DNA from: a virus
IMG/VR virus record: IMGVR_UViG_3300036985_002914
Span: 1-62,136 of that record
Length of the DNA: 62,136 bases
Strand: one strand, 5' to 3'
Below are positions 36,606 to 48,493 of the stretch, piece after piece. Each line of letters starts with the position of its first letter. The stretch's first letter is position 1. The notes below the pieces were generated by a model. It did no database searches, was not told the origin of the DNA, and was given only the letters and a program-made list of their open reading frames with translations. The translations under genes were made by a program, and so were the position numbers.

Positions 36606-36648
36606 AAAAAAACAATTAGAATTTCCTGCAGTAATGTATAGAATGAGT

Positions 36649-36682
36649 GTTCCTAATAACGGAACCATAGAGGATAGAGATC
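36649..36682 (+). promoter_or_regulatory. Hairpin plus AGAGGATAGAGA leader (1 of 5)
   Basis: GTTCC/GGAAC (36649-36653, 36661-36665) forms a 5-bp stem ending 17 bases before the ATG. ATAGAGGATAGAGA (36667-36680) is the Shine-Dalgarno leader shared with four later genes. TATAGA (36638-36643) is a possible -10, but I see no good -35. Confidence 0.6.
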
Positions 36683-37396
36683 ATGAAATTCAAACAGTTA
36701 TTCAGTATTGACACCAACGCGAAAACCGTTAAGGGGCAGCAATACGGTTTTATGACGGGCATTTTGTATCTTGCCCCCTATAAACTGAGCGGTTATCAGG
36801 TTTGTTCAATGGCCGACATGGCGCAGTGTCATGAGCCCTGCCTAAACATGGCCGGACGTGGTGCGTTTAGTTCAGTGCAAAAGGCACGCATCGCGAAGAC
36901 AAAGCGATTTTTTGAAGATAGGGACGCGTTCATGTTTGACACTTTTGAATCAGTGCGGGCATTAGTACGTAAAGCGGCACGAGAAAATCTCACGCCATTG
37001 GTGCGGTTGAACGGCACGTCCGATATCCGTTGGGAAGATATTCTGTTTCAGGGCAAAACCTTGTTTGATTGGTTTCCTGATGTTCAATTCTACGATTACA
37101 CAAAAATCCCGAACCGTAAAAACATTCCTGCCAATTATGACTTGACGTTTTCCTATTCCGGCGTGGTGCAGTTTCAGCCGTACGTCAAAAAAGCACTGCA
37201 GAATAAAGAGCGAATCGCAGTAGTGTTTAGAGATCGCAAGACAATCCCGAAGACATTCGCAGGGTTAAACTGTGTTGACGGTGACGATTCTGATTTGCGA
37301 CACCTCGACGCTAAAAACGTGATTGTTGCGTTATATGCAAAGGGGCGGGCAAAAAAAGACAAAAGCGGCTTTGTTGTTGATTCGGTGGGGGCGTGA
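36683..37396 (+). CDS. GP88-like phage protein
   Basis: This is a 237-residue protein. It opens FSIDTNAKTVKGQQYGFMTGILYLAP and has CSMADMAQCHEPCLNMAGRG (41-60), then KARIAKTKRFFEDRDAFM. This matches the 'gene product 88' family first named in mycobacteriophages. The four-Cys/His cluster may bind metal. The function is unknown. It lies in an accessory block expressed from a hairpin leader. Confidence 0.7.
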   Translation: MKFKQLFSIDTNAKTVKGQQYGFMTGILYLAPYKLSGYQVCSMADMAQCHEPCLNMAGRGAFSSVQKARIAKTKRFFEDRDAFMFDTFESVRALVRKAARENLTPLVRLNGTSDIRWEDILFQGKTLFDWFPDVQFYDYTKIPNRKNIPANYDLTFSYSGVVQFQPYVKKALQNKERIAVVFRDRKTIPKTFAGLNCVDGDDSDLRHLDAKNVIVALYAKGRAKKDKSGFVVDSVGA

Positions 37397-37397
37397 C

Positions 37398-37466
37398 ATG
37401 TTCCTATTTGCTTTGGCATTGATTTTTATTCTGTGGTGGCTTTGCGACGTGTTCGATCGACGTTGA
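37398..37466 (+). CDS. Possible 22-residue membrane peptide
   Basis: The frame MFLFALALIFILWWLCDVFDRR begins just after the GP88-like stop, with GGGGG upstream. It is one short hydrophobic helix with a positively charged end. Its stop overlaps the TTGACA of the next promoter. It is too short to be sure. Confidence 0.35.
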   Translation: MFLFALALIFILWWLCDVFDRR

Positions 37467-37577
37467 CAATCGTTGATCAGATATTGATTGAAACAATCAA
37501 TTGGCTATTGTGCTGAACAATGCGGTATTGTTTAGTCATTCGCTGATTGGCAGCGAACACTAGAGAGGATAGAGAGC
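37463..37577 (+). promoter_or_regulatory. Control region with three inverted repeats and leader (2 of 5)
   Basis: TTGACA lies at 37463-37468. The -10 17 bases later is weak (GATTGA). It is overlapped by the inverted repeat ATTGATTG-AAA-CAATCAAT (37483-37501). A second repeat AACAAT/ATTGTT (37516-37532) and the leader stem TTCGCTG/CAGCGAA (37539-37557) follow. AGAGAGGATAGAGAGC then leads into ATG 37578. This arrangement suggests tight control by a dimeric repressor. Confidence 0.55.
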
Positions 37578-37775
37578 ATGAAAAAATTCAAGGTCAATCA
37601 CATTGTGACGTGTAGGGTTAACGTGTGGCGCACTATTGAAGCGCATAGCTTTGATGATGCTTTGCGTAAAGTGGCAACTATTGAGTGCATCACAGATACA
37701 AGCAATGGTGCAGATCTCGAGGTTATCTCAGATGAAACGGTTAATAAAATCACAATTTCGGAGGTGTTGCCATGA
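37578..37775 (+). CDS. Hypothetical protein
   Basis: This is a 65-residue protein: MKKFKVNHIVTCRVNVWRTIEAHSFDDALRKV. The beta-alpha pattern VxxxVxVWRTIEAxSFDDAL resembles small phage proteins with an ASFEEA-type helix. No function is known. It overlaps the next gene by ATGA and is expressed from the hairpin leader at 37539. Confidence 0.6.
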   Translation: MKKFKVNHIVTCRVNVWRTIEAHSFDDALRKVATIECITDTSNGADLEVISDETVNKITISEVLP

Positions 37776-38038
37776 AAACGAAAGAGGAAATAAAACAATA
37801 TGCGCTTGAAGTAGCGCTAGGACATTTTTTTGTTAATGTAGGCGAGGATGAATTTCCCGACGATCCGATGGCGTTATTGGCCACCGATGATACGTCGGAC
37901 GAAAGCGGGAAAGAGAAAATGTTCCCATGGGAACCATTCGAGTATTATCCCGCGAGGCGGCTATATGACGAAGTCGAAGCATTAGCCAGCGTTATTGAAC
38001 GTGCCATGCTTTGGGCGCAGGAAGGAATGCTGACATGA
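37772..38038 (+). CDS. Hypothetical acidic protein
   Basis: This is an 88-residue protein, strongly acidic in the centre (EDEFPDDPMALLATDDTSDESGKE), with a helical C-terminus (LYDEVEALASVIERAMLWAQ). It overlaps both neighbours by four bases. No recognised domain. The charge pattern is reminiscent of DNA-mimic inhibitors, but nothing specific supports that. Confidence 0.6.
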   Translation: MKTKEEIKQYALEVALGHFFVNVGEDEFPDDPMALLATDDTSDESGKEKMFPWEPFEYYPARRLYDEVEALASVIERAMLWAQEGMLT

Positions 38039-38355
38039 AAACGACATTCGACGTGTATTCCGATTCCGGCCATGGTTGGATTAAGGTTCCGTTTTCGGTA
38101 TTGATTGAATTGGACATATACGAAAAAATAAGTTGTTTTTCGTATATCCGCAACAATTGCGCTTTTTTAGAGGAGGATTGCGACGCGTCAACATTGATTG
38201 GTGCGTTAAAGTCTCGCGGCATTATTCCGAAATTTAAAGAGCACACAGCGATGGAGCGCAGGAGCAAAATAAGGAATTATTTTTGTTTTCATCCGGCGGT
38301 AGTGCGAAACTATATAAGCGGGCAAGGCGATAAAAACAATCAATTGGCGGCATGA
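38035..38355 (+). CDS. Hypothetical protein
   Basis: This is a 106-residue protein from ATG 38035, which overlaps the previous stop (ATGA). It begins MKTTFDVYSDSGHGWIKVPFSVLIELDI, a pattern shared with small phage and plasmid proteins. CAFLEEDCDASTLIGALKSRG follows. No function is recognised. Confidence 0.65.
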   Translation: MKTTFDVYSDSGHGWIKVPFSVLIELDIYEKISCFSYIRNNCAFLEEDCDASTLIGALKSRGIIPKFKEHTAMERRSKIRNYFCFHPAVVRNYISGQGDKNNQLAA

Positions 38356-38419
38356 CTTACATTAGACTATTATTCAGTTATCCGCTGACGGCAGCGGAAT
38401 TTCAGAGAGGATAGAGAGC
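38344..38419 (+). promoter_or_regulatory. Promoter candidate and hairpin leader (3 of 5)
   Basis: TTGGCG (38344-38349), 18 bases and TATTAT (38368-38373) form a possible promoter. The stem TCCGCTG-ACGG-CAGCGGA (38381-38398) then ends 21 bases before the ATG, with AGAGAGGATAGAGAGC between. The stem differs from the one at 37539 by a compensated T-A to C-G pair. Confidence 0.6.
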
Positions 38420-39427
38420 ATGGCACACATGATAGACACCACCACCGGAACTGCTGCAATGGCTTTTGCAGGCAAAACCCCATGGCATGGTTTAGGTCAG
38501 GCACTGACACCGGACGCAACAATCGAGCAATGGACAGCGGAAGCGGGATTGTCTTATACCGTTTTGGAATCGGCCGTCGAATACACTACGCCCGCGGTAA
38601 CAGGGTATCAGGTATGGCCAGCGCGGAAAGTATTGCACCGCTCAGATACTGGCGCGCCTTTGGCGGTAGTGTCAAAAGACTATAACGTAGTCCAGCCGCA
38701 GCAGGTGATGGACTTTTTTCGCAAGCTTGCAAATATTGGTGGCTTTCAGATGGAAACCGCGGGAGCTTTATCGCATGGCCGCAGGGTGTGGGCATTGGCC
38801 AGCGTAGGCACTGGCGCGCCAGTGGTAGATGGTGACATTGTTAAACCGTATCTTTTGCTGGGCACGTCCTATGATGGAACCATGGCAACCATTGCAAAAT
38901 TCACAGCTATCCGCGTGGTATGCAATAACACCATAACCGCGGCAGTCGGCGGCTACAGTAATGGCCGCGTGATTAAGGGTGAAACGGAAAACGACAAGGG
39001 TTATATAAAATCGGCCGTTCGTGTATTGCATAGCGAACGGTTCGATGCGGACGAAGTCCGTCTACAATTGGGCATTGTTGCAAATCAATTCGAGGCTTTC
39101 ATGGTGCAGTCGCGCCAGCTTGCAGGCGTGCCAATGAGCGGCTTTGAGGCGGATGCATTCATCACTGAATTGTTGAAACCGTATCACACGGGCAAGCTTG
39201 ATATATCCGACTCACGCGCTTATAAACGCGTGTTCGCACTGTTCAATGGCGCGGCCATTGGTTCTGATATAGCGGGCGTAATTGGCACGCGTTGGGGCAT
39301 GCTCAATGCTGTCACTGAATTGGTCGATCATGAGCGCGGCCGCTCTGATAATACGCGTTTAGAGTCGGCATGGTTTGGCACTGGTGCTGCGATTAAAAAC
39401 CGCGCTTTGGAATTATTGTCCGCTTAA
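38420..39427 (+). CDS. DUF932 / TIGR03299-type phage-plasmid protein
   Basis: This is a 335-residue protein with TPWHGLGQAL near the start, VSKDYNVVQPQQVMDFF, FTAIRVVCNNTI, and SAWFGTGAAIKNRALELL at the end. These are the conserved blocks of the DUF932 (TIGR03299) family found on phages, plasmids and other mobile elements. The function is undetermined; roles in plasmid or phage maintenance or defence have been guessed. It is a single-gene transcription unit, with its own leader hairpin and its own terminator at 39453. Confidence 0.85.
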   Translation: MAHMIDTTTGTAAMAFAGKTPWHGLGQALTPDATIEQWTAEAGLSYTVLESAVEYTTPAVTGYQVWPARKVLHRSDTGAPLAVVSKDYNVVQPQQVMDFFRKLANIGGFQMETAGALSHGRRVWALASVGTGAPVVDGDIVKPYLLLGTSYDGTMATIAKFTAIRVVCNNTITAAVGGYSNGRVIKGETENDKGYIKSAVRVLHSERFDADEVRLQLGIVANQFEAFMVQSRQLAGVPMSGFEADAFITELLKPYHTGKLDISDSRAYKRVFALFNGAAIGSDIAGVIGTRWGMLNAVTELVDHERGRSDNTRLESAWFGTGAAIKNRALELLSA

Positions 39428-39452
39428 ATCATAATAATACTTAAGTGACCAT

Positions 39453-39493
39453 AAAAAAACCGGTTCTTCATTCTGTGACTGACCGGTTTTTTT
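39453..39493 (+). terminator. Intrinsic terminator after the DUF932 gene
   Basis: AAAAAAACCGGT (39453-39464) pairs with ACCGGTTTTTTT (39482-39493) around a 17-base loop. The seven-T run makes it a clear intrinsic terminator, usable in both directions. Confidence 0.85.
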
Positions 39494-39593
39494 CTATACT
39501 GACGATTAATTTTAGTAAGCTAAACCAGCCCCGCGGTGCGTGGCGCGTGTCTCGCTGGACGTGGCGCGTGGTGCGCGGCGCGTGGTTTGTGCT

Positions 39594-39709
39594 GCATTGT
39601 TCGCGGTTCGCGGCACATTGTGCGGTTTTTCCGCACAATGGCGGCATAAAGCATTGTTCGCGATTCGCGCGCCATTATTCGGTTTTACCGAATAATGGAA
39701 AACAATAAA
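39594..39709. repeat. Tandem 57/59-bp repeat with covarying hairpins
   Basis: Two copies start at 39594 and 39651. Each begins GCATTGTTCGCG(G/A)TTCGCG and contains a perfect hairpin. Copy 1 has CATTGTGCGG-TTTTT-CCGCACAATG (39616-39640). Copy 2 has CATTATTCGG-TTTTA-CCGAATAATG (39673-39697, with one more C-G pair outside). The two stems differ at two base pairs and both changes are compensated, so the structure, not the sequence, is conserved. No protein-coding use is seen. A GC-rich stretch with repeated GTGGCGCGTG (39549-39585) precedes it. Confidence 0.75.
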
Positions 39710-39715
39710 CTATTG

Positions 39716-39790
39716 TTGACTCGCAGCATTTATGCTGCGATAATGTATTCAAGGTGATCGGCCGATCGCCCTTTATAGAGGATAGAGAAG
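39716..39790 (+). promoter_or_regulatory. Promoter with palindromic spacer, and hairpin leader (4 of 5)
   Basis: TTGACT (39716-39721), a 17-base spacer and GATAAT (39739-39744) form a good promoter. The spacer is almost entirely the palindrome TCGCAGCAT-TT-ATGCTGCGA (39721-39740), an operator candidate. The leader stem GGTGATC-GGCC-GATCGCC (39753-39770, one wobble pair) and ATAGAGGATAGAGA (39775-39788) lead into ATG 39791. Confidence 0.7.
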
Positions 39791-40207
39791 ATGAGACCTT
39801 CAACATTAGCAGCAACCCTTCGCGTTAGCTTGTTCGCGGATCGCGGATCGGATATCACTGCAGCATGGCAGTTTGCAGATGACATGCTGACAGGCATGCC
39901 GGACGCTGGATCACGTGCGGCGGCGCGCACCGCACTGCACGTTCTAGTCAATACGATTGCAAACGCGATCAATGATCTTGAACCGGCGACCATTGCCCCC
40001 GCTGACCAGCCTGATGTCGGAATCGATGAATCGCGCATCGCGCATATGGTTGACGTGCACATGGCGCGCTGGCTGGAGGATAACTTCGACATCGATCATT
40101 TGGCGCAAGAGGCGATCGGACAAGTGATCGACGATATCGACATGGAAGATATGATCGGCGACGCAATCAAAAACATGAATTTTAAAGTTGACATCCGAGC
40201 GGACTAA
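39791..40207 (+). CDS. Hypothetical acidic protein
   Basis: This is a 138-residue protein. The N-terminal half is Ala-rich and helical (AATLRVSLFADRGSDITAAWQFADDML). The C-terminal half is very acidic and may form an amphipathic repeat (IDHLAQEAIGQVIDDIDMEDMIGDAI). No domain is recognised. It is expressed from the operator-bearing promoter at 39716. Confidence 0.6.
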   Translation: MRPSTLAATLRVSLFADRGSDITAAWQFADDMLTGMPDAGSRAAARTALHVLVNTIANAINDLEPATIAPADQPDVGIDESRIAHMVDVHMARWLEDNFDIDHLAQEAIGQVIDDIDMEDMIGDAIKNMNFKVDIRAD

Positions 40208-40220
40208 TAGTATTATTTCT

Positions 40221-40266
40221 CCATGGCATCAACCGATGCCATGGAAACTTATAGAGGATAGAGAAA
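40221..40266 (+). promoter_or_regulatory. Hairpin leader (5 of 5)
   Basis: CCATGGCATC-AACC-GATGCCATGG (40221-40244) is a perfect 10-bp stem ending 22 bases before ATG 40267. ATAGAGGATAGAGA (40251-40264) lies between. No separate promoter is obvious, so the gene is probably cotranscribed with 39791 and the hairpin would sit inside a longer message. Confidence 0.65.
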
Positions 40267-40557
40267 ATGACAACAAACACTAAGCCAGTCCGCACCGTCA
40301 CCCTAGGCTGGGAAGAATACATCCTGCCAGCATCGATGACCGACAAGCAAATCATTGAGCTGGTCGGCACACTGGCACTGCTGGACAAGGTGACCAGCAA
40401 GGGTACTAAGGATTACAAGGTCAGTCATTACTACGTCAGCAACAAGCAAAACGTGATGATCCAGACGCGCAACGTGCATACCAGCGAGGCTGCAGCAACT
40501 GCGGCCTGCGATGCATACAACGCAGCGCTTGTTACTGACGAAGCTGTCACAGCATAG
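40267..40557 (+). CDS. Hypothetical protein
   Basis: This is a 96-residue protein: TLGWEEYILPASMTDKQIIELVGTLALLDKV then YKVSHYYVSNKQNVMIQTRNV. A mixed alpha-beta small protein with no recognised family. It is the last gene of the accessory block. A strong hairpin and a parS site follow within 75 bases. Confidence 0.6.
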   Translation: MTTNTKPVRTVTLGWEEYILPASMTDKQIIELVGTLALLDKVTSKGTKDYKVSHYYVSNKQNVMIQTRNVHTSEAAATAACDAYNAALVTDEAVTA

Positions 40558-40613: not shown

Positions 40614-40629
40614 TGTTTCACGTGAAACA
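40614..40629. promoter_or_regulatory. parS: parS site (ParB-binding), copy 1
   Basis: TGTTTCACGTGAAACA is a perfect match to the bacterial chromosomal parS consensus, tGTTnCACGTGAAACa. The palindrome extends to 20 bp (40612-40631). It lies in a non-coding region between the accessory block and TerL. I see no parA or parB gene, so the expected ligand is host ParB. Confidence 0.85.
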
Positions 40630-48370: not shown

Positions 48371-48493
48371 ATGAAAAAATCACCTAAACCAATCGTTAAA
48401 AAGGTTAAAACTGTTCCACGTGAAACAATTTCTGACCCTCGTCCGACCTACGTTTACCGGAAGGACGCGTTTAAAAAGGTAAAAATTACCTAA
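48371..48493 (+). CDS. Small basic protein containing a parS site in its codons
   Basis: This is a 40-residue, Lys-rich protein: MKKSPKPIVKKVKTVPRETIS and so on to FKKVKIT. It starts one base after the portal stop; AAGGAC lies 8 bases upstream. The residues TVPRET are encoded by the parS site at 48412. No family is recognised. The frame may be a real small DNA-binding protein or simply a passage kept open around parS. Confidence 0.5.
   Translation: MKKSPKPIVKKVKTVPRETISDPRPTYVYRKDAFKKVKIT
48412..48427. promoter_or_regulatory. parS: parS site (ParB-binding), copy 2
   Basis: TGTTCCACGTGAAACA is identical to the canonical parS of Bacillus subtilis and fits the general consensus. It differs from copy 1 only at the fifth base, which is variable in the consensus. 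It lies 7.8 kb from copy 1, on the far side of TerL, the transglycosylase protein and the portal. Confidence 0.85.

Follow-up and report, generated by a model that had tools for sequence, protein, structure and literature searches.

In the window analysed here, which is the whole 62,136-base record IMGVR_UViG_3300036985_002914 of an uncultured tailed phage in IMG/VR, five genes are each preceded by the same kind of unit, consisting of a sigma70-like promoter, a hairpin with which the message is predicted to begin and an extended Shine-Dalgarno (SD) sequence, with the gene behind it as a moron-like cassette. The preliminary description of this DNA had reported a hairpin and an SD motif before the genes at 36683, 37578, 38420, 39791 and 40267, and this observation was confirmed. 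The exact motif AGAGGATAGAGA occurs five times in the record, at these five genes only and each time followed by NNATG, and the five stems are present as listed, 17-22 bases before the ATG, the fifth (11 bp) being one pair longer than had been noted. The promoter upstream of the hairpin, to whose -10 box the hairpin is fixed, was not part of that description. Because the promoter lies upstream and the stem usually begins at the predicted transcription start (+1, placed throughout from the position of the -10 box), the unit comprises promoter, hairpin and SD together. Its hairpin is followed by a single-stranded, A-rich linker of 7-11 nt (consensus AACCTAG) and then by the extended SD, A[A/G]AGGATAGAGA, 1-4 nt 5' of the ATG, the consensus of the extended motif across leaders being AGAAAGGATAGAGA. 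The anatomy of the module and its recurrence before dozens of unrelated genes are demonstrated by the genome sequences compared below.

Within the window, sites matching AGAGGATAGAGA with up to two mismatches number 13, against an expectation of 3.1; none of the shuffles had as many. Perfect hairpins number 15, compared with 7.6 expected; eight of them lie within 37.4-40.7 kb, and outside the cassette region of the window there is no excess. Tested singly, hairpins 2, 3 and 5 beat their shuffles (0.4%, 0.2% and 0%, respectively), and for leader 5 the complete predicted 5' leader folded with a z of -3.1.

To extend the comparison, related phages were collected as 80 viral contigs found by a large terminase (TerL) search together with further contigs from a motif scan, amounting to 1.14 Mb; a search for relatives with the 40267 protein yielded no confirmed ones, and the TerL search afterwards recovered the 40267 family. 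The only, and nearest, named relative of the window phage is DSL-LC04, which has been proposed as a new family (PMC10611076) and whose host is predicted to be gammaproteobacterial. Leaders were defined in the relatives by A[AG]AGGATAG with an ATG nearby, the reversed motif serving as a control, and hairpins were compared with those in dinucleotide shuffles and in the regions before other starts of the same contigs. As a result, 243 distinct leaders were obtained (154 after removal of near-duplicates) and none with the reversed motif, and a strong hairpin was present in 64% of the 154, compared with 7.7% in shuffles and 22% before other starts. The proposal of a common 5' element was thus borne out, stems being strongly enriched upstream of the motif. 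The exact 12-mer was accompanied by a hairpin in 77% of cases on contigs encoding proteins of this phage family, compared with 5% in unrelated viral contigs and 8% in bacterial genomes. A chance origin of the leaders was rejected on the motif counts, the hairpin enrichment and the comparison with unrelated copies of the 12-mer. Leaders against the orientation of their locus (38 of the 243, mostly before small gene families, e.g. L265, L263 and L279) carry strong hairpins less often (11 of 27 non-redundant). It was also observed that three contigs in which no protein of the family was detected (L003, L022 and L051) carry TTGACA...TATAAT, the hairpin ACGGTAATTTTGCCGT and AGAGGATAGAGA; they perhaps represent a more distant phage group.

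Upstream regions were also chosen by gene, ignoring the motif, and compared with shuffles. Hairpins were found before 70% of DUF932 genes (9% in shuffles), 86% of the 39791 family (13%) and 100% of the 40267 family (13%), and no excess was found before TerL (26 vs 23) or portal (12 vs 11) genes. Hairpins were also in excess upstream of the major capsid gene (MCP, 51305 in the window; 70% vs 19% in relatives), with neither the SD motif nor a -10 box, and of the 42325 gene (26 vs 7), with no motif, so that hairpins alone are not peculiar to leader-bearing genes. The hairpins upstream of MCP may perhaps be another RNA element.

The genes behind the leaders of the relatives belong to 49 protein families, of which 20 were seen once. 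Four families recur in constant order (D, DUF932, the 39791 family and the 40267 family), and differing single genes, each with its own leader, are inserted between them; the idea that genes are added as cassettes was therefore upheld, variable genes being inserted in a conserved D-B-...-A-C order. In the window, the first place of the order is taken by the GP88-family gene. In DSL-LC04, several genes of the region have an SD of another kind in common (CACATACAGGAGAAA-like), and the DUF932 gene retains TATAAT and a hairpin before yet another SD, which indicates that the architecture outlives the SD sequence.

Pairing was judged from anchored alignments and pair counts, with the sequences not fitted to a structure. 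When 85 leaders were anchored on the -10 box alone, with no selection for hairpins, only the axis i+j=43 paired. At its 8 stem positions, 54.7% (0.547) were paired with the leaders' own arms, compared with 39.3% (0.393) when arms were swapped between leaders, and at least 80% pairing was reached by 28% of the leaders, compared with 2.2% with swapped arms. In two independent ungapped sets of leaders of equal -10-to-SD length, anchored by -10 and SD, compensatory changes were found at 9 of 9 stem pairs in both alignments; the cells paired amounted to 64% and 71%, compared with 28-39% after sliding by 1-3 columns, and the covariation scores of 0.48 and 0.60 were matched by none of 500 shuffles. 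Among the strong hairpins, which mostly have stems of 7-11 bp and loops of 2-4 nt with no loop consensus, 79 of 84 are distinct. The structure of the hairpin, not its sequence, is conserved, as had been noticed from the five stems of the window, and these comparisons show, at the level of sequence, that selection acts on pairing and not on any particular hairpin sequence. Since the letters of the stem vary freely yet pairing is kept, it is probably the shape of the hairpin that matters. A shared operator for one regulator was rejected, the stems having no common sequence. Binding by a regulator, one of the roles first suggested, is likewise disfavoured in its sequence-specific form because 79 of the 84 hairpins differ, and there may be a structure-specific binder. 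Accordingly, the original interpretation is partly supported; the mRNA protection and the exposure of the ribosome site that it also proposed are putative roles. A search of the leaders for known RNA families gave two sub-threshold small RNA matches (E 0.29 and 0.83), neither covering the leaders, and nothing else.

Of the three highest-ranking sigma70 matches in the region, two are the promoters of leaders 5 and 4 (TTGACA-17-TATTAT at 40188 and TTGACT-17-GATAAT at 39716), and 31% of the relatives' leaders have a perfect TATAAT, compared with 3% in shuffles. The foot of the stem lies most often 6-7 nt past -10, the normal start site, so that transcription is expected to start where the stem does; the hairpin is thus predicted to form the 5' terminus of the mRNA, and the predicted start falls at its foot instead of between hairpin and ATG, the latter having been named as the arrangement that would speak against a common 5' element. 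The axis of the hairpin is tied more closely to -10 than to the SD (median absolute deviation, MAD, 1.0 vs 2.0). Of six leaders with a good -10 box and no hairpin, four have the -10 box 15-16 nt from the SD, not about 36 nt, and look as if a hairpin module of about 20 nt had been dropped from between +1 and the SD. As a separate observation, a AAACAATYAATTGG-like sequence is present upstream of leaders 1-3 (36608-36622, 37491-37505 and 38334-38348) and of many leaders in the relatives, at or shortly before the expected -35.

We consider it fairly probable, by analogy with known stabilising leaders, that each unit is an autonomous module for gene expression, in which the hairpin at the 5' terminus shields the mRNA from RppH and RNase E and insulates an unstructured ribosome site. 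In E. coli, RppH and RNase E depend on an unpaired 5' end, and mRNAs with secondary structure at the 5' end are more stable (PMC3997798). A hairpin starting at, or 1-2 bases from, the predicted +1 would deprive RppH and 5'-tethered RNase E of an unpaired 5' end, and short early messages would live longer. Folding on itself, the hairpin would also act as an insulator, barring leader and upstream sequence from pairing with the ribosome site, and whatever gene sits behind could be translated uniformly and strongly. Free divergence of the stems might, more speculatively, reduce homologous recombination between adjoining modules. In a wider version, which we put forward tentatively and hold to be rather unlikely, the family would keep a multi-copy module of conserved structure and scrambled sequence in which promoter spacer and leader are both variable palindromes, stem divergence would be selected, since recombination between identical copies would delete the intervening genes, and a phage or host factor may read the shape of the 5' hairpin together with the extended SD.

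Several observations weigh against the shielding and insulating module. The -35 boxes of leaders 1 and 2 are poor, and these leaders have only the -10-like sequences TATAGA and TATTGT, and a strong hairpin is missing from about a third of the relatives' leaders. In the window, hairpins 1 and 4 are individually marginal relative to shuffles (8% and 6%), and their whole predicted 5' leaders fold ordinarily (z -0.29 and -0.38). The window alone therefore gives a moderate case, and significance comes from the relatives because their leaders carry strong hairpins. Mismatches of the G.U and A.C kinds stand at 9:4 in the stems (P = 0.27), where selection on RNA predicts an excess of G.U, and this ratio does not tell selection on the RNA from selection on a palindrome in the DNA. 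The span of the hairpin does not correlate with the -10-to-SD distance across all leaders (r about 0.01); a value of r = 0.76 was obtained only under a restricted -10-to-stem gap, which is a biased subset, and it was not used as support. Finally, a subset of promoters has variable palindromes between -35 and -10 (33% vs 6% in shuffles; 11.5% vs 1% in the axis test), which lie outside the predicted transcript and are left unexplained by mRNA protection.

The main rival, which we nevertheless judge unlikely, is a translational role, in which the hairpin would mainly insulate or present the ribosome site, as a standby site or through a structure-reading phage or host protein that recruits ribosomes, with stability secondary and GATAGAGA past the SD core being part of the signal. 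This role would fit the distance of 7-10 nt from stem end to SD in most leaders, the joint occurrence of hairpin and SD in the family (77% vs 5-8% elsewhere) and the conservation of the motif beyond the part pairing with 16S rRNA, as in mycobacteriophage SAS (PMC3203893). However, the lack of a loop consensus tells against it, and a hairpin axis that follows -10 more closely than the SD suggests a function at the 5' end. A role at the DNA level, with the inverted repeats serving the promoters as operators or as sites of recombination or cruciform formation and the RNA hairpin being incidental, appears quite unlikely. The stems are nearly perfect palindromes with loops often of 2-4 nt, the palindromes within promoter spacers and the non-significant mismatch asymmetry would both suit it, and the ESAS repeats of cluster K have been interpreted as DNA sites (PMC3203893); on the other hand, the palindrome is placed at +1, and hairpins with no common sequence cannot be read by a single DNA-binding protein.

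It is very unlikely that the hairpins are unselected by-products of template-switch (quasipalindrome) mutation perfecting palindromes in length-constrained non-coding spacers. Palindromes do occur in two spacers of constrained length and free sequence (-35 to -10 and +1 to SD), and MCP upstream regions likewise have excess hairpins, whereas the upstream regions of TerL and portal genes and the remainder of the window outside the cassette region do not. That the hairpins, although intergenic, terminate or attenuate read-through from the preceding gene is hardly credible and was rejected, since the terminator-like hairpins listed for the window (loop limit 8) include none of the five, none carries a T-run, their place is 3' of the promoter whose gene would be silenced, and the apparent terminator (about 39450-39495) is a separate element.

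The leaders form a natural set, already tried by evolution, of more than a hundred interchangeable 5' leaders in which only hairpin shape and position at the predicted +1 are kept. With this set, what 5'-terminal hairpins do for the expression of phage genes can be tested directly; it also offers a parts set of expression insulators and a handle for finding accessory (moron-like) genes in uncultured phages. The apparent terminator 3' of the DUF932 gene is consistent with a self-contained promoter-gene-terminator unit. At 39595-39710, two perfect hairpins (39616-39640 and 39672-39698) lie within an imperfect direct repeat of about 56 bp (GCATTGTTCGCG...), between whose two copies the stems have changed in a compensatory way (ATTGTGCGG/CCGCACAAT vs ATTATTCGG/CCGAATAAT); these repeats are possibly remnants of lost cassettes.

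Table. Components of the five leaders of the window, with a nearby apparent terminator and examples of parS-type sites in related contigs
Feature	Position	Strand	Remarks
Leader 1, GP88-family gene 36683-37396	36637..36683	+	weakest of five, shuffle P 0.08
Leader 1 -10-like TATAGA	36637-36642	+	no clear -35
Leader 1 stem-loop	36649-36665 (arms 36649-36653/36661-36665)	+	5 bp, loop UAAUAAC
Leader 1 SD AGAGGATAGAGA	36669-36680	+	ATG 36683
Leader 2, 65-aa open reading frame (ORF) 37578-37775	37501..37578	+	
Leader 2 possible -35 TTGGCT	37501-37506	+	weak, 19-nt spacer
Leader 2 -10-like TATTGT	37526-37531	+	
Leader 2 stem-loop	37539-37557 (arms 37539-37545/37551-37557)	+	7 bp
Leader 2 SD	37564-37575	+	
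Leader 3, DUF932 gene 38420-39427	38344..38420	+	
Leader 3 promoter	-35 TTGGCG 38344-38349, 18 nt, -10 TATTAT 38368-38373	+	sigma70 list
Leader 3 stem-loop	38381-38398 (arms 38381-38387/38392-38398)	+	7 bp
Leader 3 SD	38406-38417	+	
Leader 4, 138-aa ORF 39791-40207	39716..39791	+	
Leader 4 promoter	-35 TTGACT 39716-39721, 17 nt, -10 GATAAT 39739-39744	+	sigma70 list
Leader 4 promoter spacer, palindrome	39721-39740	+	
Leader 4 stem-loop	39753-39770 (arms 39753-39759/39764-39770)	+	7 bp, one G.U
Leader 4 SD	39777-39788	+	
Leader 5, 96-aa ORF 40267-40557	40188..40267	+	
Leader 5 promoter	-35 TTGACA 40188-40193, 17 nt, -10 TATTAT 40211-40216	+	sigma70 list
Leader 5 stem-loop	40220-40245 (arms 40220-40230/40235-40245)	+	11 bp, loop AACC
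Leader 5 SD	40253-40264	+	
Apparent terminator 3' of DUF932, ACCGGTT...GACCGGTTTTTTTC	39450..39495	+	by eye; absent from terminator list (loop limit 8)
parS-type sites, examples in relatives	L279 8177, 11982; L308 11909, 12635; L312 7031, 7757		

The window also contains palindromic sites at 40614-40629 and 48412-48427 (TGTTTCACGTGAAACA and TGTTCCACGTGAAACA), which we take to be canonical bacterial chromosomal parS. Sites of this type number 34 in the related phages, where 27 of 79 contigs have them, frequently some 1.9 kb past the TerL start; scrambled-palindrome controls gave 0. No member of the ParB family was found among the window proteins scanned, and the phage may use the ParB of its host.

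Among known systems, the leader of T7 gene 10 is one example of a 5'-terminal stabilising stem-loop. Others are those of ompA and papA of E. coli, where structure at the 5' end keeps out RppH and 5'-tethered RNase E (PMC3997798). The module resembles the ompA type in having a hairpin at the predicted 5' end of the mRNA, with the stem starting within a few nt of the probable +1 (foot mostly 6-7 nt past -10), followed by a short single-stranded linker and a strong SD, and in that structure, not sequence, is conserved. Unlike the ompA type, it is repeated before dozens of genes in one phage family, its stem sequences are unrelated while the extended SD is fixed, and the stabilisation of mRNA is here a presumed property. 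With respect to organisation, the promoter early stem-loops (PeSLs) of T4-type phages were reportedly described by Arbiol in 2010 and Comeau in 2014, in the words of the titles as composite promoter-terminator motifs. PeSLs are likewise multi-copy units of promoter and stem-loop in places where small genes shuffle (PMC4503421), and they have early promoters, earliness being presumed for the leaders here. The leader hairpins differ in lying past +1, in having a fixed SD motif and no T-run, and in that none of the five is terminator-like, and the window phage is not T4-like, with a family A DNA polymerase and other terminase and portal families (large terminase phrog_38 and portal phrog_1216).

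In cluster K mycobacteriophages, SAS, a short conserved sequence containing an SD core, stands at many start codons, and an inverted repeat that includes a SigA-like promoter, ESAS, lies just 5' of about half of the SAS (PMC3203893, PMC11373665). The likeness to the present leaders lies in the short SD-core sequence at many starts and the inverted repeat upstream. However, the 13-bp GGGATAGGAGCCC of SAS is not matched by the A[A/G]AGGATAGAGA motif described here, and the ESAS repeats of 17 bp share a consensus, their sequence being conserved with departures that do not support RNA pairing (PMC3203893), whereas here nearly all hairpins are distinct, pairing is kept with free sequence and the repeat lies past the promoter. 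The haloarchaeal tailed virus HGTV-1 has a TATA-box-like region and an inverted repeat before most ORFs of one half of its genome (PMC3950731), which by this description is similar to the repeated promoter and inverted repeat before many genes observed here, the promoter and host of HGTV-1 being archaeal. Taken together, by analogy with these systems, the module appears to work like the 5'-terminal stabilising stem-loops and to be organised like the PeSLs of T4-type phages, the repeats of HGTV-1 and the SAS/ESAS of cluster K.

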